Notes under the pieces: generated by a model
Told to the model about the DNA's origin: nothing
The model's input: the letters and a program-made list of their open reading frames with translations, nothing else
Databases searched by the model: none
Shown: positions 2,588 through 14,122 of the stretch, one piece after another
Position numbering within the stretch: the stretch's first letter is position 1
How the letters are laid out: each line of letters begins with the position of its first letter
Origin: a virus
Length of the DNA stretch: 20,100 nucleotides
IMG/VR virus record: IMGVR_UViG_3300012985_000032
Coordinates: 1 to 20,100 of that record
Strand: one strand, 5' to 3'
Translations under genes and position numbers: made by a program

Positions 2588-3151
2588 ATGGCCGAACCCG
2601 AAACCGCCGAGGACTACGAGAACGTCATCGTCCTCCGTAACGAGGCGACCGGCGCGTTCATGTCCGTGCCCGCCGCCGAAGCCTCCGACGAGCAGAAGGC
2701 CGAAGCCGTCGGTGGCGCCAAGCACCGCAAAGCCGTCTGGCAACACCGCCTCGCTGGCGCGCAAGCGCGCGCCGGGACCCTGCCCCGGCTGCTGACCGCG
2801 TCGTTCGCGGCTGGGACCGTGAACCTCATGCTGTCGAAGCTGCTGCAAGAGGAGATCGTGCCGACGACCGCCAAGGAAGCCGCGGACGTCGCCAAGACCG
2901 CGTACGCGATCTACCAGCAAGTCGCCGGAGACGCGCCAGGCAAGGACCTCACGCCCGTCGAGCGCGAGCAGAAGCGCGACGCGATCGACGTGATGGAGAA
3001 AGAACTTGCGAAGCGGGCGGAGGCCGCCGGCGTTGACCTCGGCGGTGCCGTACCCCCCGGCGAGAAGCTCCCCGCACCCGTCGAGGCCTCGGCCGATGAC
3101 GACGAGCCGAACGTATGGGAACACGAGGTCCCCGCGGGCGACAAGACCTGA
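2588..3151 (+). CDS. Helical protein of unknown function
   Basis: A 187-residue protein, largely helical and charged. The start MAEPETAEDYENVIVLRN is acidic. Residues 40-62 are basic (AKHRKAVWQHRLAGAQARAG), followed by a hydrophobic stretch LLTASFAAGTVNLMLSKLL (64-82), too short and polar to be a confident membrane span. A long charged helix around 118-148 includes VEREQKRDAIDVMEKELAKR. The last 30 residues are acidic and Pro-rich. No small terminase subunit is recognisable in the window, and this protein, upstream of the large subunit, is one weak candidate; I see no helix-turn-helix that proves it. It probably starts a transcript from TAACCT. Confidence 0.7.
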   Translation: MAEPETAEDYENVIVLRNEATGAFMSVPAAEASDEQKAEAVGGAKHRKAVWQHRLAGAQARAGTLPRLLTASFAAGTVNLMLSKLLQEEIVPTTAKEAADVAKTAYAIYQQVAGDAPGKDLTPVEREQKRDAIDVMEKELAKRAEAAGVDLGGAVPPGEKLPAPVEASADDDEPNVWEHEVPAGDKT

Positions 3152-3154
3152 CGG

Positions 3155-3215
3155 TACGCTCCGGGCGCGGCCACGCTGGGCCGCCCAGAGCCTGGATGCG
3201 CTACAGGAGGACCCA
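3155..3215 (+). promoter_or_regulatory. Candidate promoter and hairpin-capped leader with strong RBS
   Basis: TACGCT (3155-3160) fits a TAnnnT -10 element and would start RNA near 3167. The transcript would then begin almost exactly with a perfect six-base-pair GC stem, GCGGCC (3167-3172) and GGCCGC (3179-3184), around a six-base loop. The ribosome site CAGGAGG (3204-3210) stands five bases before the ATG at 3216. No convincing -35 is seen. The same layout occurs before the scaffold gene at 15345-15396. Confidence 0.45.
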
Positions 3216-3536
3216 ATGGCAGCGATCACCACCGTCACCCCCGACTCGAAGCGATCCCCGCAACGCGTCGGCACCCGCCTCGAGTGGAACGGGAAGATCA
3301 CCGGCCCCGCCTCCTACGACACTGGCGGCAGCGTCCTTGACGCCAAGTTGTTCGGTTTCACCCAGTTCATGGGTGGCGGCGCCTTCCAGTCCGGCGGCCG
3401 CACGTTCGAGGTCATCATCCAGTCGCCGCCGTCGACGGCGAAGCTCAAGGCCTACGTCGGGACCACCGGCGTCGAGGTCGCGTCAACGACCGACATCTCG
3501 GCATCGGTGCCCTGGGCGATCCTGCACGGCCGGTAA
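3216..3536 (+). CDS. Small beta-rich protein, possible virion decoration protein
   Basis: A 106-residue protein with one of the best ribosome sites in the window (AGGAGGACCCaATG). The start MAAITTVTPDSKRSPQRVGT is followed by a strand-rich body with GSVLDAKLFGFTQFMGGGAF (about 38-57), RTFEVIIQSPPSTAKLKAYVG (62-82) and a short C-terminus VPWAILHGR. Similar small proteins with a G-x-LTA-xLGF-x-(0-4)-GGxF pattern are found among phage structural and decoration proteins, and strong expression signals suit a protein made in many copies. The assignment is inference: no catalytic or DNA-binding motif is visible. It is followed after three bases by another small beta-rich gene, suggesting a pair. Confidence 0.7.
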   Translation: MAAITTVTPDSKRSPQRVGTRLEWNGKITGPASYDTGGSVLDAKLFGFTQFMGGGAFQSGGRTFEVIIQSPPSTAKLKAYVGTTGVEVASTTDISASVPWAILHGR

Positions 3537-3539
3537 CCC

Positions 3540-3929
3540 GTGGCCCGCCTCTCGTACCAAGAAGTCGCGATCGCCAACGGCGCGAGCCTGTCCGGCGAGG
3601 TCGACTTGCGTAACCATCGGCTCGTCGCGATCGACATGCCCGCGACGTGGACCGCGGCCGCGATCACCTTCGCCGGCGCGGCCGCCCCCGACGGGGCGCG
3701 CGCAGCGACGTCGCCGGAACCGTTCGATCCGGTCAAAGATTCCGGCGGCACGGAGGTCTCGATCACGACCGCCCAGGCCACCTACGTCGTGTTGACCGAA
3801 GCTCACCGCCAGGCCCTCGGCGGCCTCGCCCGCTGCAAGGTCCGGTCCGGCACCGCGGGCGCGGCGGTCAACCAGGGCCAGGCCGTGATCCTGACGTTGG
3901 TGCTCGAGCCGCGAGACTCGAACACCTGA
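3540..3929 (+). CDS. Small beta-rich phage protein, probably virion-associated
   Basis: A 129-residue protein from a GTG (3540) three bases after the previous TAA. Features are SYQEVAIANGASLSGEVDLRN (5-25), RLVAIDMPATWTAAAITFAG (27-46), a spacer rich in Ala/Pro, GGTEVSITTAQATYVVLTE (68-86) and ALGGLARCKVRSGT followed by AAVNQGQAVILTLVLEPR. I remember the pattern GxSLSG-DL-xx-LVAI-MPxxWTAA-ITF and L-xLKVRSGT-xx-NQ from many phage genomes, where it is a small jelly-roll-like protein of unassigned role near structural genes. No enzyme motif is present. Together with the preceding gene it forms a two-gene unit ending before the methyltransferase promoter. Confidence 0.75.
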   Translation: MARLSYQEVAIANGASLSGEVDLRNHRLVAIDMPATWTAAAITFAGAAAPDGARAATSPEPFDPVKDSGGTEVSITTAQATYVVLTEAHRQALGGLARCKVRSGTAGAAVNQGQAVILTLVLEPRDSNT

Positions 3930-3930
3930 C

Positions 3931-3959
3931 GTGACGCGCGGCCCGGCCGCTGTCAGGAT
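3931..3959 (+). promoter_or_regulatory. Probable leaderless promoter of the methyltransferase-terminase genes
   Basis: GTGACG (3931-3936, four of six matches to TTGACA) is followed by 17 bases and CAGGAT (3954-3959), which is preceded by TGT to give an extended -10 (TGnCAGGAT). The ATG at 3966 comes six bases later, so the mRNA would begin at the start codon. AGGA within the hexamer could serve as a weak ribosome site instead if transcription starts further upstream. Confidence 0.5.
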
Positions 3960-3965
3960 CGCCCG

Positions 3966-5123
3966 ATGACCCGAACCATCGACCTGTTCTCCGGCTGTCG
4001 AGGATGGGACGTGTTCGGCCGCGAGATCGGCCTCGACCCGCTCGGCATCGAACTCGACGCGGACGCCTGCGCCACGAGTACCGCGGCCGGGTTCCGTTCC
4101 ATACGCGGCAACATCGCCGCGATGGACCCGGCCCGGTTCCGTTCGGCGGAAGGGATCATCGCGTCGCCACCATGCACCGATTTCTCCACCGCAGGCGCGC
4201 GGGCTGGGGTCGAGGGCGAGTCGGGCCGGCTGATCTTCGAGGTTCCCCGCCGGGTTGAGGCGATCCGGCCGCGGTGGGTTGCGTGCGAGCAGGTCCCTCC
4301 GGTGTTGGAGTGGTGGGAACGGTTCGCGCACGACTTCACCAGCCTCGGGTATCGCTGCTGGACGGGCCTGCTCAACGCCGCCGACTACGGCGTCCCCCAA
4401 ACCCGGACCCGCTCGTTCCTGCTCGCCTCGTTGGATCGTGACCCGCGCCCGCCGGAACCGACACACGCTCGCCATCCGATGCCGGGCCTGTTCGGGACGG
4501 ACCTGTTGCCGTGGGTGAGCATGGCCGACGCGCTCGGATGGGGCGTGAACGATCGGCCGTGCCCGACTGTTACCGCAGGCGGTGGCGAAACCGGGGGGCC
4601 GGAACCGATCGCACATAGCAAGAGAGCCGCCGCCGCCGCCGCCGCCGCGCGAGGAGAGTGGATCGTCAACACGCATGGCGACTACGACGAGGGCGGCACC
4701 GACTTTCCGATGTGCGAGCCATCGTGGACGCTGACCGAAAAGGCCCGATCGTGGTGGATGCTGCACACGAACCGCGGCCAGGATGAGCATGGTAACCGGC
4801 AGACGCGTGAGACTTCCGCGCCCGCGCCCGCGCTCTCGTCGAAGGCCGGAGGTCAGTGGGCGTTCCAACGGCCAGCTGCGACCGTCTGCGCCGATCCTCG
4901 GCTCGCCGATCCTCGGCTCGCCGATCCTGGTCACCGTGATCGCGAAGGCGGCGAGCGCCAGTTCCGAGAGGACGGCATCCGGCTCACGGTCCGGGACGCG
5001 CTGATCCTCCAATCGTTCCCGCCCGACTATCCGCTCGTAGGGAACAAGACCAGCAAGTTCCGCCAGATCGGCAACGCCGTCCCACCCCTCCTCGCCCGCC
5101 GCGTCCTCGAACAAGTCCAATGA
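3966..5123 (+). CDS. Cytosine-C5 DNA methyltransferase
   Basis: A 385-residue enzyme with the ordered motifs of cytosine-C5 methyltransferases, which transfer a methyl group from S-adenosylmethionine to cytosine in a short target. Motif I is DLFSGCRGWD (6-15), motif IV SPPCTDFS with catalytic Cys70, motif VI EQVP (108-111, where most members have ENV), motif VIII QTRTRS (145-150), and motif X RQIGNAVPP (366-374). The target-recognition region (about 160-335) has an eight-Ala run (221-228) and a DPRLA repeat (310-320). The likely role is to modify phage DNA against host restriction or to affect packaging or expression. It ends inside the terminase start codon (ATGA), so the two are coupled. 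The target sequence cannot be read, and no partner endonuclease gene is seen. Confidence 0.93.
   Translation: MTRTIDLFSGCRGWDVFGREIGLDPLGIELDADACATSTAAGFRSIRGNIAAMDPARFRSAEGIIASPPCTDFSTAGARAGVEGESGRLIFEVPRRVEAIRPRWVACEQVPPVLEWWERFAHDFTSLGYRCWTGLLNAADYGVPQTRTRSFLLASLDRDPRPPEPTHARHPMPGLFGTDLLPWVSMADALGWGVNDRPCPTVTAGGGETGGPEPIAHSKRAAAAAAAARGEWIVNTHGDYDEGGTDFPMCEPSWTLTEKARSWWMLHTNRGQDEHGNRQTRETSAPAPALSSKAGGQWAFQRPAATVCADPRLADPRLADPGHRDREGGERQFREDGIRLTVRDALILQSFPPDYPLVGNKTSKFRQIGNAVPPLLARRVLEQVQ
4626..4649 (+). repeat. GCC trinucleotide run coding for polyalanine
   Basis: Seven GCC codons and one GCG give eight consecutive Ala residues (221-228) inside the recognition region of the methyltransferase. 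In-frame length change by replication slippage would alter the linker without a frameshift. Confidence 0.9.
4890..4928 (+). repeat. 15-base in-frame direct repeat in the methyltransferase gene
   Basis: The unit gccgatcctcggctc occurs at 4890-4904 and 4905-4919, with a third partial copy at 4920-4928. It codes for repeats of A-D-P-R-L in the target-recognition region. The copies are identical at the DNA level, which suggests a recent duplication. Confidence 0.9.
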
Positions 5124-6703
5124 CCCGCGGCCCGATACCGCGCGAGCTTCTCCCCTTCGCCACCGACGAGGAACTCGACCAATACGTCGACTGGCTCGAA
5201 TCCGAAGTCGACACCCAAGCCGTCGACACCGACACCTGGACGCTCCAAGACCGCCAACAAGACGCCGAGGACGCCCTCACCGACCTCGACCCCGCAATGT
5301 CGCACGAGCTCCTCTACGGCGGCATGGCCGGCGGCGGCAAATCCGACTTCTTGCTCTGGCACCCGTACAACGCCTGCCAGCGATACCCGGGCCTGCAGGT
5401 GCTCATCTTGCGGCGCACGTTCTCCCAGCTGCGCCGCTCACTGATCCGCCGCTCCCTTGAACGGTTCGATCGGGCCGTGTGCAAGTACCTCGTGACCGAG
5501 ACGACGTGGAAGTTCACGAACGGGTCGAGCATCGAGTTCGGCTACCTCGAGTCCGACATGGACGTCTACAACTACGACTCGGCCGAGTACGACATCATCG
5601 AGTGGGACGAGCTCACGCAGATGCCGACGCCGTTCCCGTACCTGTACCTGTTCTCCCGGCTGCGGTCGAAGTTGTCGATCCGGGCGCGCGGGTTCGTCCC
5701 TCACGTCGTCGCGGCGACGAACCCGGGCCGGGTTGGTGCGGCGTGGGTCAAGGCCCGGTTCGTTGACACCGCCCCGGCGGATACCCGCACGGTGCACGAA
5801 CTCGTCGACGATGAGGGCAACGCGATCGCGTTCGACGATGACGGCCAGCCGATGTTCGGCACCCGCATCTTCTTGCCCGCGACCTTGGATCAGAACCGGT
5901 ACATCTCCCGGGCCCAATACACCGCGAGCCTCGCGAACCTGCCGAAGGCGCAACGAGAAGCGCTCCTGTCCGGCAGCTGGGACACGATCGAAGGCCAATA
6001 CTTCACCGAATGGGACCGGTCCCTCCACGTCGTCGACCCGTTCACGATCCCGGCCTGGTGGACGCGGCTGCGCTGCATCGACTACGGCCACTTCGCCCCG
6101 TTCTGCTGTCTGTGGCTCGCGTTCGACGGCGACAACACCGCCTGGGTGTACCGGGAGCTCTACAAGCGGAACCTGACCCCGAAACAGCAGGCCGCTGCGA
6201 TCTTGGATGCGCAGGCGCCGGGCGAGCACATCGCGTATACGATCATCGACCCGTCGACGATGGCGCGCACCGGTGTCGGTATCCCGATCGCGCAGCAGTA
6301 CGTCGAGGCCGGGGTGCCGGTCCGGCCGGGCCTGAACGCCCGGGTCGCGGGCTGGGCGCGCGTGCGTGACTTCCTCCGCCCGGTCGAGCAGCCCGGCCCG
6401 AACCCCGACGACCCGCCGATCCTCGTGCCGGGCCTGCGGGTGTTCTCGACGTGCACCGATCTGATCCGCACCCTGCCGATGCTCGTGCACGACCTCACCG
6501 ACCCCGAAGATTTGGACTCCGACGGCGAGGACCACGCCGCCGACGCCCTGCGGTACGGGCTGATGTCGCGGCCGCCGCGGTCCCGGCCAACGAAAGAGAA
6601 GCCCGATACCTTGGAGAAGCGCATGGCGGCCAACCGGCGTCTGCGAGAGTTGGAACGGCAGGGCCGCAAGTCGGTTGATCATCCGATGCTCGGCAAAATC
6701 TGA
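5120..6703 (+). CDS. terL: Terminase large subunit (DNA packaging ATPase/nuclease)
   Basis: A 527-residue packaging motor that pumps phage DNA through the portal and cuts the concatemer. The ATPase half shows Walker A GGMAGGGKS (67-75), Walker B YDIIEWDE (157-164) with the paired acidic residues, and the coupling motif AATNP (198-202). The RNase H-like nuclease half shows RCIDYGH (318-324, Asp321), IIDPSTM (375-381, Asp377) and DGEDHAADALRYG (468-480), giving the expected acidic cluster. Length is normal for the family. The ATG overlaps the methyltransferase stop by four bases. The C-terminal 40 residues are basic (ANRRLRELERQGRK), as usual in proteins contacting DNA or portal. No small subunit is recognised beside it. 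Confidence 0.96.
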   Translation: MTRGPIPRELLPFATDEELDQYVDWLESEVDTQAVDTDTWTLQDRQQDAEDALTDLDPAMSHELLYGGMAGGGKSDFLLWHPYNACQRYPGLQVLILRRTFSQLRRSLIRRSLERFDRAVCKYLVTETTWKFTNGSSIEFGYLESDMDVYNYDSAEYDIIEWDELTQMPTPFPYLYLFSRLRSKLSIRARGFVPHVVAATNPGRVGAAWVKARFVDTAPADTRTVHELVDDEGNAIAFDDDGQPMFGTRIFLPATLDQNRYISRAQYTASLANLPKAQREALLSGSWDTIEGQYFTEWDRSLHVVDPFTIPAWWTRLRCIDYGHFAPFCCLWLAFDGDNTAWVYRELYKRNLTPKQQAAAILDAQAPGEHIAYTIIDPSTMARTGVGIPIAQQYVEAGVPVRPGLNARVAGWARVRDFLRPVEQPGPNPDDPPILVPGLRVFSTCTDLIRTLPMLVHDLTDPEDLDSDGEDHAADALRYGLMSRPPRSRPTKEKPDTLEKRMAANRRLRELERQGRKSVDHPMLGKI

Positions 6704-10606: not shown

Positions 10607-13600
10607 ATGAGTGCCCCGCCGCTCACGAACAAGGAGTTCCACCCTCGCCATCCTGGGGCGGGTTCCGACTATGTCGTCGAGCCGAACGCGCCCGAGGAAA
10701 CGCTGCGCTACTGGGTTGTTGGTGACGCGTACCCGCGCCTGGTCCTCGATGTTCCGAACCATCAGGTCCTCGTCGGCGATGGCACCGTTCCGCCGGTCTC
10801 TGCGACGGTTGGCACTGCCGCACCGAATGACGCAACGTACGTCACCCTGGCGGCGAGCGCGGGCCTGTCGGCGGAGACGACGCTCGGGAACGTGATCCGC
10901 CGCGACGTTGTCGCGAATCGGGGCGCGTTTGGCACGGCGGGCATCGTGTTCGGCGCGACCGACACCGGTATCGGCTACCGCGATTCCGGCACGAGTTGGG
11001 ACCCGTACTTCGCGGTCCTCGACGGGTCCGGCAAGGTCAACACGTCGGTCCTGCCGCCGATCTCGTCGACGCTTGCCGGACTCACCGACGTTGACCTGAC
11101 CGGCCTCACCGACCTCGACCTGCTCCAATACTCGGCCGGCGCGTCGAAGTGGCTGCGGGTACCGGCCTCCGGGTTCGGCACGACCTACACCGCAGGTACG
11201 GGGCTCACGCTCGCGGGCACACAGTTCCGCATCACGAATATCGGCCCGGGCGCGACCGGCCCACTCGGCTCCGCCACGACCGTTCCCGTCGTCACGATCA
11301 ACGCGCAAGGCCAGACCACCGCGCTCACCTCCGCGGCCATCCAGATCGCCGAAAGCGCCGTCACGAACCTCACGACCGACCTCGCGGCGAAGTTCACAAC
11401 GAGCACCGCCCTGGGCGGCGACCTGACCGGGACCTTGCCGAATCCGACGCTCATCGCGACCGGGCCCGGCGCCACTGGTCCTCTCGGGTCCGCGACGACC
11501 TCGGCCATCGTCACCATCGACGCGAAAGGTCGCGTTACCGCGCTGACCTCGGCTGCGATCGCCATTGCTGAATCCGCGGTCACGAACCTTGTCGCCGATC
11601 TGGCCGCGAAGTTCGCCACGGCAACCGCGCTCGGCGGTGACCTCACGGGCACGCTTCCGAACCCGACGCTCGCCACCTTCGGGCCTGGTGCGACCGGGCC
11701 GATCGGCAGCGCGACCACCGTGCCGGTCGTCACTATCGACGCGAAGGGCCGCGTGAGCGCGCTGACGTCGGCCGCGATCGCGATCGCCGAGTCTGCCGTG
11801 ACGAACCTCGTCACCGACCTCGCGGGCAAAGCTGCCAAGACCGCCGCGGGCGGCCCTTACGGATCTGCGACGTCTATCCCGGGGATCACGGTCAACGCGG
11901 ACGGCTCATTGTCGTTTACGGCGAACGCGATCGTGCTCCCGAAGTTCGGTGGGCTGCTCGTCATCGGCCACTCCTACACGCAAAACGGTGGGAACCGCAG
12001 CTCGCAAGGCGCGCCCGGCCTGGACGTGTGGTCGAACTGGACGCACCGCGTTGCGGGGGCGCTCCAGATCCCCGTCGAAGAAGTGTTCTTGTGGGGCAAG
12101 TCGTCGGCTCGGGCGGGTGTAGCGACACTCGGGGACGGTTCGACACTCCAAGGGTCCGGTGTCGTCATGCGCCACCACGTCCCGAACCACTGGTACACGC
12201 CGAGCCTCACCGCGCATCAGTCGTCGAAGGGTTGGCCCGCACTCATCGTCATGGAGTACGGCTACAACGATGTGGTCAACGGCTGGCAGGGCGGCGTAGC
12301 TCGCACCCAAGCTGAAAACGCGTTCATGCACGGGATGCGGTCGATGATCTCCCGAGTCCGTGCCCGCCTGCTCTATGAGGCAACCAACGCGACGATCGCG
12401 TACACGGGAACATGGTCAACGCAGACCGACAAGAACTACTGCACGAAAGGCACCTACAAGAAAACGACCACCAACACGGATCTGTTCACGATCACGCTGC
12501 CGACCACACTGGAAGGCGACAGCGCCGACGCCGTGATCGTCGCGGTGTGCATGATCGGCACCCCGAACGCGTGGACGACCACAACGAACAGCGCGACCAG
12601 TACCTCGTTGCCGGTCGCGGCACGCGACAACTTCCCGCAGTCCGGCAACTTCGACATCATCGTCAACGGCGCGACCCGCACCGTCACCGCCGGGCAAGGA
12701 ACGGGCGCGGGCACGTTCACGTTGAGTTCGTCGGCAACATGGACTTCCGGCCAGGACGTAGTACGCGCGAGCGGCGCACTCGTCACATGGTCCGGTACGA
12801 GCGGAGTAACGGGCACGACCACGATCGGCGGGCAAGGCGCTACGGGCGTTCCGTGCCATGTCGTCAAGCGGTTCACGCTCACCCGCGCGGCTGCGGGGAC
12901 GACGATCATCGGGACATTGAGCGCGTTCGCGACGAGCGAAGAGTTCGACCTTGACTCCTGGTGGATCGAGGAAACCGACCCCCAACAGGTCCTGTGCGTG
13001 AACCAGCCGCTCGGCGCGCTCGGCACAACGCTCAACCTCGCGTCCGACGCCGGTATCACGACGAATAACACCGACCTCGCGACCGTCGTCGCGGAGTTCT
13101 CCAACAACGTCGCGGTCGTCGATCTCGTCCCGACCTTCAACAGCCTGTACCGGGCGATCTGCCAGGCTGCGACGAGCACCGGCACGAACGTCCACATCAT
13201 CCCCGACGACCCAACGAACTGCGTTATCGGTGTCGGTTCGATCCTTCATGTCGACCAAGAAGAAATGCTCGTCACCGCGATCACCAAGACGAGCAACAGT
13301 GATTGGTCGCTGACCGTTACTCGCGACTACACGACCGCACCGGACGGCCGGTCGACGGGCGGGAACGTCAACCATCTGATCGCCGCGCCGATCTACGACA
13401 TGCGGCCGTGGACACTGGACCGCGTACACCCGTCCGATGAGGGCCACGTCCTCATTGGCTCGCTGGTCCTCGCCGCGGTTGCGGGCTCGACCCAAACCGC
13501 ACGCGAGATCGCGAACTCGGGCGGCTACGTCCAGAAACGCCAACCGAAACTTCTCGATGGCGGCTTCCTGTGGGTCCAGGGCGGCACCCGATCAACGACA

Positions 13601-14122
13601 ACGAACGCGACGAACCCCGGCACGCTCAACATGCTCACCGCGGGCCGCATCTACGTCCCCGAAGCGATCACGCTCACGTCGCTCAGTATCCAAAACTCGG
13701 GCACGGTCTACGCGGCGAACGCGGTTGTCAGAATGGGGGTATGGGCTGACGGCAATCAGCAGCCCGGCGCCCTGATCCTCGACGCGGGCACCGTCGACGT
13801 TCACGCCTCCGCCGCGGTGCAGACGCTCACTTGTTGGGTGCCGTTGAAGCCCGGCTGGTATTGGCTCGGCGCGGTGATCCAGGGCGCGGCCGGTACGGGC
13901 ACGATCACAGTGACAACCGATGTACGGAGTAGCCAGCCGCTCGCGAACACGACGAATCCGCTATCCACCACGTTCGCTGACAACAACGGTGTGCGCCTCT
14001 CGGGCGTCTCGGCCGGATTGCCCGACCCATTCGGCACCCCGACCGCATGGCAATCGGGCGCGACTGCCGCGACCGGCATCATCTGCGTCACCGCGGGCTA
14101 CACCATCCCGATCAAGGACTGA
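10607..14122 (+). CDS. Large tailspike/fibre with split SGNH hydrolase domain
   Basis: A 1171-residue virion adhesin. Residues 8-65 repeat the attachment domain of the preceding protein. Residues 213-430 hold three 73-residue repeats (GPGATGPLGSATTVPVVTI, ending GGDLTGTLPNPTL) plus a decayed fourth. From about 448 an SGNH/GDSL-type hydrolase begins: VIGHSYTQNGG (catalytic Ser456), EYGYNDV (Asn554) and DRVHPSDEGH (Asp938, His941). Such domains remove ester-linked groups from surface glycans, so this is a likely decapsulating or wall-glycan deacetylating spike. The catalytic blocks are separated by a beta domain (about 599-790) and a small beta module (about 873-925, GSILHVDQEEMLVTAITK). The C-terminal 200 residues are Gly/Thr/Asn-rich beta structure, presumably for receptor binding. 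The substrate is unknown. Confidence 0.87.
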   Translation: MSAPPLTNKEFHPRHPGAGSDYVVEPNAPEETLRYWVVGDAYPRLVLDVPNHQVLVGDGTVPPVSATVGTAAPNDATYVTLAASAGLSAETTLGNVIRRDVVANRGAFGTAGIVFGATDTGIGYRDSGTSWDPYFAVLDGSGKVNTSVLPPISSTLAGLTDVDLTGLTDLDLLQYSAGASKWLRVPASGFGTTYTAGTGLTLAGTQFRITNIGPGATGPLGSATTVPVVTINAQGQTTALTSAAIQIAESAVTNLTTDLAAKFTTSTALGGDLTGTLPNPTLIATGPGATGPLGSATTSAIVTIDAKGRVTALTSAAIAIAESAVTNLVADLAAKFATATALGGDLTGTLPNPTLATFGPGATGPIGSATTVPVVTIDAKGRVSALTSAAIAIAESAVTNLVTDLAGKAAKTAAGGPYGSATSIPGITVNADGSLSFTANAIVLPKFGGLLVIGHSYTQNGGNRSSQGAPGLDVWSNWTHRVAGALQIPVEEVFLWGKSSARAGVATLGDGSTLQGSGVVMRHHVPNHWYTPSLTAHQSSKGWPALIVMEYGYNDVVNGWQGGVARTQAENAFMHGMRSMISRVRARLLYEATNATIAYTGTWSTQTDKNYCTKGTYKKTTTNTDLFTITLPTTLEGDSADAVIVAVCMIGTPNAWTTTTNSATSTSLPVAARDNFPQSGNFDIIVNGATRTVTAGQGTGAGTFTLSSSATWTSGQDVVRASGALVTWSGTSGVTGTTTIGGQGATGVPCHVVKRFTLTRAAAGTTIIGTLSAFATSEEFDLDSWWIEETDPQQVLCVNQPLGALGTTLNLASDAGITTNNTDLATVVAEFSNNVAVVDLVPTFNSLYRAICQAATSTGTNVHIIPDDPTNCVIGVGSILHVDQEEMLVTAITKTSNSDWSLTVTRDYTTAPDGRSTGGNVNHLIAAPIYDMRPWTLDRVHPSDEGHVLIGSLVLAAVAGSTQTAREIANSGGYVQKRQPKLLDGGFLWVQGGTRSTTTNATNPGTLNMLTAGRIYVPEAITLTSLSIQNSGTVYAANAVVRMGVWADGNQQPGALILDAGTVDVHASAAVQTLTCWVPLKPGWYWLGAVIQGAAGTGTITVTTDVRSSQPLANTTNPLSTTFADNNGVRLSGVSAGLPDPFGTPTAWQSGATAATGIICVTAGYTIPIKD
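11243..11899 (+). repeat. Three 219-base in-frame tandem repeats in the tailspike gene
   Basis: Copies begin at 11243, 11462 and 11681, each GPGATGP(L/I)GSATT at the protein level, so the period is exactly 219 bases or 73 residues. The third copy loses its GGDLTGTLPNPT end, and from about 11849 a degenerate fourth copy (GGPYGSATSIPGITVNADG) leads into the hydrolase domain. Protein identity is higher than DNA identity, so the repeats are not very recent. Confidence 0.93.

Follow-up and report, generated by a model that had tools for sequence, protein, structure and literature searches.

The open reading frame at positions 3966-5123 is, judged by its profile matches and motifs, a real C5-cytosine methyltransferase gene, and its product is a predicted orphan enzyme whose catalytic core is single and standard (motifs I-VIII and IX-X), with four tandem units lying in the region between motifs VIII and IX. 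Comparison with relatives shows that such units are discrete cassettes; their gain, loss and replacement take place at exact borders and follow the catalytic tree poorly. It is proposed, on balance, that one core and four exchangeable recognition cassettes form a multi-cassette enzyme that would modify several targets and would protect the phage from several host restriction systems. The window, meaning the whole stretch of DNA that was analysed, is a virus record of 20,100 bases that represents a linear fragment; among its genes are those for a terminase, a P22-like portal and a podovirus-type capsid. Scanning the whole window for Rfam families and tRNAs gave no match, and a promoter scan of 3100-5400 found none.

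The methyltransferase and its cassette array

The gene product matches PF00145 (E 1.6e-39) and phrog_116 (E 6.1e-57) and exceeds the cut-off of the TIGR00675 model, which together with motifs I, IV, VI, VIII, IX and X places it among the C5-cytosine DNA methyltransferases with a single deviating residue in motif I (Table 1). An M.HhaI-like catalytic fold is indicated through the model of the relative L001, which superimposes onto M.HhaI with a Z score of 24.1 (rmsd 3.4, 248 aligned residues) and onto M.HaeIII with a Z score of 23.3 over 249 residues. The catalytic core of the window enzyme itself is mostly modelled by AlphaFold at pLDDT above 80, whereas most of the array falls below 50 in both the window and the L001 models and is thus not confidently modelled. 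The C-terminal part of the protein (4944-5117) resembles the C5-carboxymethyltransferase structure 8yf3 (E 2.4e-7, whole chain).

Motifs I, IV, VIII and X had been described as intact in an earlier note made from the sequence alone, and this is correct for motifs IV, VIII and X, which are standard. It is not quite right for motif I, because FSGCRG stands where the family has FAGPGG; the conserved G is replaced by R, as it also is in L010. The same note regarded EQV in motif VI as a variant, and although EQV is indeed present, a search for anything unusual here ends with the family counts, as the 138 parsed enzymes carry EEV in 79 cases, EQV in 54 (52 scripted and two found by eye among the script's misses) and ENV in one, with odd letters in four rows (EVI, EAI, EPV, ELV) that are probably mis-captures.

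The array comprises four units of 31-42 residues with the cores RPCPTVTAGG, EPSWTLTEK, APAPALSSK and RPAATVCAD, so that at sequence level a single core holds a tandem row of recognition units after motif VIII and before motif IX. The related segments noticed earlier are therefore real, but reading them as fresh repeats is not supported, since these cassette cores are old and recur across the whole family. All 11 other carriers have NTRG as their first cassette, and among the parsed enzymes it is internal in the window alone; the window thus stacks two first-slot types, GGG and NTRG, in tandem. A local test alignment put NTRG-first rows into the GGG slot. A PDB sequence search with the array and C-terminus of L205 returned no match up to E 10.

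Table 1. Features of the methyltransferase gene, its array and the adjoining gene (window coordinates)
Feature	Position	Strand	Basis
C5-cytosine DNA methyltransferase gene, 385 aa	3966..5123	+	PF00145, phrog_116, TIGR00675 matches
Motif I DLFSGCRGW (family consensus DLFAGPGGW)	3981..4007	+	Alignment with relatives
Motif IV SPPC, catalytic Cys70	4164..4175	+	C70 column invariant among relatives
Motif VI EQVPPVL	4287..4307	+	EQV at residues 108-110; EQV/EEV is the family norm
Motif VIII QTRTR	4398..4412	+	
Family anchor PWVSMADAL, directly ahead of cassette array	4509..4535	+	Near-invariant in relatives
Cassette 1, GGG type, core RPCPTV, class B	4536..4661	+	GGG in first slot in 80/80
GCC run (Ala8) within cassette 1, cassette length unchanged	4626..4648	+	7 GCC + GCG
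Cassette 2, NTRG type, core EPSWTL, class E	4662..4754	+	Clustering of cassettes
Cassette 3, HTNR type, core APAPAL, class D	4755..4859	+	Clustering of cassettes
Six-base repeat at HTNR core	4816..4833	+	
Terminal cassette, RPATT type, core RPAATV	4860..4982	+	
15-base tandem repeat, one extra 5-residue PRLAD unit in terminal cassette	4889..4928	+	
Motif IX VRDALILQSF	4989..5018	+	
Motif X GNAVPPLL	5070..5093	+	
Terminase large subunit (terL), neighbour outside the proposed mechanism	5120..6703	+	phrog_979, E 8.7e-33

Cassettes and arrangements across the family

The starting set consisted of 207 methyltransferase ORFs from fetched loci and the window, to which two collection scans contributed the best 80 of 473 and the best 80 of 571 confirmed loci. 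Pattern-based filtering reduced these to 162 distinct sequences (19 without motif IX, 14 without motif VIII and 12 duplicates were dropped), and leaving out 24 that lacked the anchor or motif IX gave 138 parsed enzymes, the majority of which come from viral contigs or Streptomyces genomes. Between them these hold 313 cassettes (plus the stretch preceding motif IX) in 55 arrangements and about 46 classes, a class count that hinges on the clustering cut of 0.62 and includes a few segments that fuse two cassettes (L008, L115). The segments lie after motif VIII and the PWVSMADA anchor and before motif IX, mostly end in Trp and form arrays of one up to six pieces within the same family. Internal cassettes have a median length of 35 residues; by pattern, 12 of the 138 enzymes have no cassette and 30 have no internal one.

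The cassette core can be written approximately as P-A-x-T-[VIL]-T, often with an Arg five residues ahead and Asp-Glu just before it (about R..DEPAPT[IVL]T, from 36 classes), and it is borne by internal cassettes and the others alike. The core P and core residues were partly selected by the search pattern, whereas the Arg (23 of 36 classes) and the following Thr (23 of 36) were not. Loose cores occur at 2.89 per array compared with 0.77 in shuffles, and strict cores at 0.68 compared with 0.003. The ends of the arrays vary, many Streptomyces enzymes closing with an NGNQ cassette and lacking RPATT, and HTNR and NGNQ are found in both orders (9 and 3 enzymes).

Tandem pairs of array-type methyltransferase genes are found in L008 (6004-7257 and 6741-8306), L014 (5449-6906 and 6354-7958), L164 and L010, and the second gene of each pair has a short 'GWGMTARPALT' array; L010 carries a third methyltransferase (also 4490-5548). 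Elsewhere two overlapping frames, broken in or near the array, together encode the methyltransferase (L026 5971-7296 and 7229-7546; L027; L009 333-1298 and 1085-1441), which may reflect a frameshift, a sequencing error or a real split.

Gain, loss and exchange of cassettes

A natural exact indel and a natural swap can both be read from relatives. The HTNR cassette is present in L196 and L195 and absent from L202, leaving an exact gap of 105 bases (35 codons) at core identities of 0.88 (L196/L202) and 0.86 (L195/L202), and in L196 TGGGTCCTGC marks the start border of the HTNR cassette as well as that of its successor. Near-identical borders of this kind, agreeing in at least 9 of 10 bases, are seen in 9 of 279 border pairs, and so they may explain some events but not all. 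Between L201 and L008 the first cassette has been swapped for another type, with a core identity of 0.93 and a mean DNA column identity of 89%.

A tree of the catalytic core, built from 111 of the 138 rows after near-duplicate removal and weakly resolved (35 of 108 inner branches open), places the window next to L115 (63% identity, SH-aLRT 100). This sister has none of the three classified cassettes of the window, and its array scores only 57, 52, 52 and 33 against the four window cassettes, whereas their best matches (150, 109, 124 and 95, with shuffled maxima of 40-46) come from enzymes whose catalytic cores lie elsewhere on the tree. L004 is an exception, being a near relative of the window that shares HTNR (118) and RPATT (70). 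The minimum number of class changes on the tree is 15 for SRRD, 14 for NGNQ, 13 for GGG, 11 for HTNR and 7 for NTRG, and the arrangement as a whole requires at least 70. Arrangements differ in 23 of 26 non-redundant pairs with a core identity of 0.75-0.86. A cassette pair exceeds the core in identity in 152 of 2,080 non-redundant pairs; in the majority, the similarity of the cassettes is no higher than that of the core, which counts against the proposal. Part of the arrangement pattern could be explained by differential loss from a longer ancestral array. No near-identical partner of the window with a fresh cassette exchange was found among the parsed enzymes.

Two Streptomyces loci were sampled from the 80 genome loci, and one (L202) contains integrase and FtsK-like genes while the other (L208) contains TraG/T4SS and DnaB-like genes; these surroundings fit mobile elements that cross restriction barriers.

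Repeats inside the array

The GCC run and the near-three-copy 15-base repeat that had been reported for the recognition region are both present. The latter (2.7 copies at 100% identity) is the top-scoring tandem repeat of the whole window, and its exact period-15 run of 25 bases is matched neither by any of 300 codon-shuffled versions of the gene nor by the array of any of 137 relatives. Copies 2 and 3 share the rare codons GAT and CCT (P approximately 2.5e-6 given the protein and the window codon usage), and because such exact rare-codon repetition makes an independent origin unlikely, the change is regarded as young. When the recognition regions of relatives are compared, the 15-base repeat has no counterpart: among 37 pattern-readable terminal elements the extra PRLAD is found in the window only, the 36 others being without it. 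The suggestion that the recognition region is the part undergoing change thus holds, with the 15-base repeat as a young in-frame duplication inside it. The duplication probably arose by slippage between two copies of GCCGATCCT lying 15 bases apart in the last cassette, which the ancestor would already have possessed and which would have been enough for slippage, and the extra unit lengthens the stretch just past the core of this cassette.

The GCC run does not bear out its reading as an expansion. The first cassettes of the window and L001 are both 42 residues long, so that Ala8 replaces QALLDAQG in a stretch of equal length, and a gain in length is ruled out. Its codon bias (at least 7 of 8 GCC; P 0.009) is compatible with some triplet slippage. 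Six-base Ala-Pro-coding repeats are also found at the cassette core of relatives, the same tract being longer in L164, L004 and L136 and a similar one occurring in L005. With units of 3, 6 and 15 bases, none of the repeats in the gene is of the frame-shifting kind that marks phase-variable genes.

Comparison with known methyltransferases

In C5 enzymes the choice of target is made by the region that separates motif VIII from motif IX, and the specificities, unit sizes and targets of the Bacillus phage enzymes are known from earlier literature. The multispecific C5 methyltransferases of SPbeta, phi3T, SPR, rho11 and H2 are like the window family in that a single catalytic core carries several recognition units in tandem, placed after motif VIII and ahead of motif IX. 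SPbeta has two cores with the P..T[LV] pattern of the window family, GLSPTLTTMGGG and GEPAFTVNT, the first of which aligns in the right order with residues 238-257 of M.HhaI, albeit weakly (2.3 bits). However, the Bacillus phage catalytic core is only 24% identical to that of the window over the alignable part, and the match between the Bacillus units and the cassettes is confined to the short core. The window family further differs from the Bacillus phage enzymes in its approximately 46 cassette classes, which are common to phages and mobile elements, and in its exact indels and swaps. A PF00145 search detects two adjacent C5 methyltransferase genes in phi3T (L277, L279) and one in SPbeta (L278).

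M.HhaI possesses a single recognition element and no array, and M.HaeIII is not known to have more than one such element. The domain movement described for Helicobacter reportedly concerns other enzyme types and whole domains instead of an array of short cassettes. Multi-target Bacillus phage enzymes contain tandem recognition domains (PMC8936443), and according to a review, temperate phages of Bacillus withstand many R-M systems by placing several target recognition domains in one polypeptide (PMC12707154). In Helicobacter, recognition domains move between and within methyltransferase genes (PMC3983042). A study of an actinophage methylase family with inteins and a ShiLan domain describes within-gene recombination, and the terms 'cytosine', 'target recognition' and 'TRD' do not appear in its text (Gosselin 2023, PMC9957025). 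The ShiLan-domain family is a different one, as the sole PF00145 match of phage ShiLan lies in ShiLan_70 and not in ShiLan_65. ShiLan_70 (L289 5344-6510), a mycobacteriophage C5 methyltransferase, has a repeated unit of its own in the recognition region, LLPTPxxxDGxGG, which is unlike the window-family cassettes. No description of a cassette array of the window-family type was found in titles and abstracts of the open-licence PMC literature.

Proposed function and alternatives

By analogy with the SPbeta-type multispecific enzymes, each cassette is most likely a separate target-recognition unit, and the window enzyme probably works as they do. The cassette core would correspond to the recognition-loop strand of M.HhaI. 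If each cassette is one recognition unit then one enzyme would methylate several sequences, and the parallel with SPbeta and M.HhaI suggests that as many as four targets are possible for the window enzyme. The array probably serves to withstand several restriction enzymes of the host simultaneously; the phage would gain protection from several host systems, and the exchange of a cassette would reset which of these are resisted. Points that speak against this reading are the R that replaces a conserved G in motif I, the low confidence of both array models and the slot preferences of the cassettes.

The main alternative, which is unlikely but deserves weighing, is a single specificity conferred by one composite recognition domain. 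Slots are not free, as GGG is first in 80 of 80 cases and NTRG in 11 of 12 (among the matches listed), and therefore the first and last cassettes may form one ordinary domain, with the internal cassettes as dispensable insertions that either adjust affinity or have no effect. The 30 enzymes parsed without an internal cassette agree with this, whereas the tandem first-slot types of the window, the NGNQ endings without RPATT and the core shared by internal cassettes all speak against it. Decay of the gene into an inactive passenger whose array drifts by slippage is improbable: the R in motif I and the restriction of Ala8 and the 15-base repeat to the window among parsed enzymes could be taken as its signs, but the frame is open, the catalytic Cys70, Glu108, QxRxR and motif X are retained and every repeat unit is a multiple of three. 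More improbable still is that the cassettes, modular and of similar size, read adjacent bases like beads on one long target whose length is set by their number, since arrays of one and six pieces occur in the same family and the single such element of M.HhaI suffices for a 4-base target.

Building on the reading of one target per cassette, a wider scheme is put forward with some hesitation. Actinobacterial phages and conjugative elements might draw on a common, open stock of short specificity cassettes, dozens in number, that fit one methyltransferase scaffold, each cassette corresponding to one restriction specificity met, and the array might be a readable, swappable record far beyond that of the few-unit Bacillus phage enzymes, with two first-slot cassettes stacked in the window. 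With one target per cassette, natural pairs that differ by one cassette would make the code from cassette sequence to motif directly measurable, and the restriction barriers that phages and mobile elements cross could be predicted from the cassettes they carry. Specificity stacking, known from a few Bacillus phages, would in that case also prove to be widespread and recombining in Actinobacteria.

The neighbouring terminase gene

The four-base overlap between the methyltransferase gene and terL is present as described, and it had led to the idea that methylation and packaging are linked. A phrog_2 search of 40 contigs found terL in 20, the remaining 20 being uninformative, and in all 20 contigs with both genes the two are at least 4.8 kb apart in linear distance (median 11.4 kb) and never adjoining; if the contigs are circular the distance would fall to 1.2 kb in L028 and 4.6 kb in L017. 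Upstream DNA of 1.3 kb or more is available for 51 terL loci, and in none of these does a C5 enzyme stand beside terL; in L058 one is located several kb upstream. The methyltransferase is hence not tied to packaging genes across relatives, and the overlap is ordinary operon packing because the window has further four-base overlaps at 1698-1701 and 2210-2213. A packaging link, for which the overlap could be cited together with the requirement of phage P1 for Dam methylation at pac (PMC12707154), is barely credible in view of these neighbourhoods, in which nothing beyond the overlap favours it.

Further downstream, the window encodes a large tail-type protein (10607-14122) with a weak GDSL-lipase match and several internal repeats of the GGDLTGTLPNPT type.
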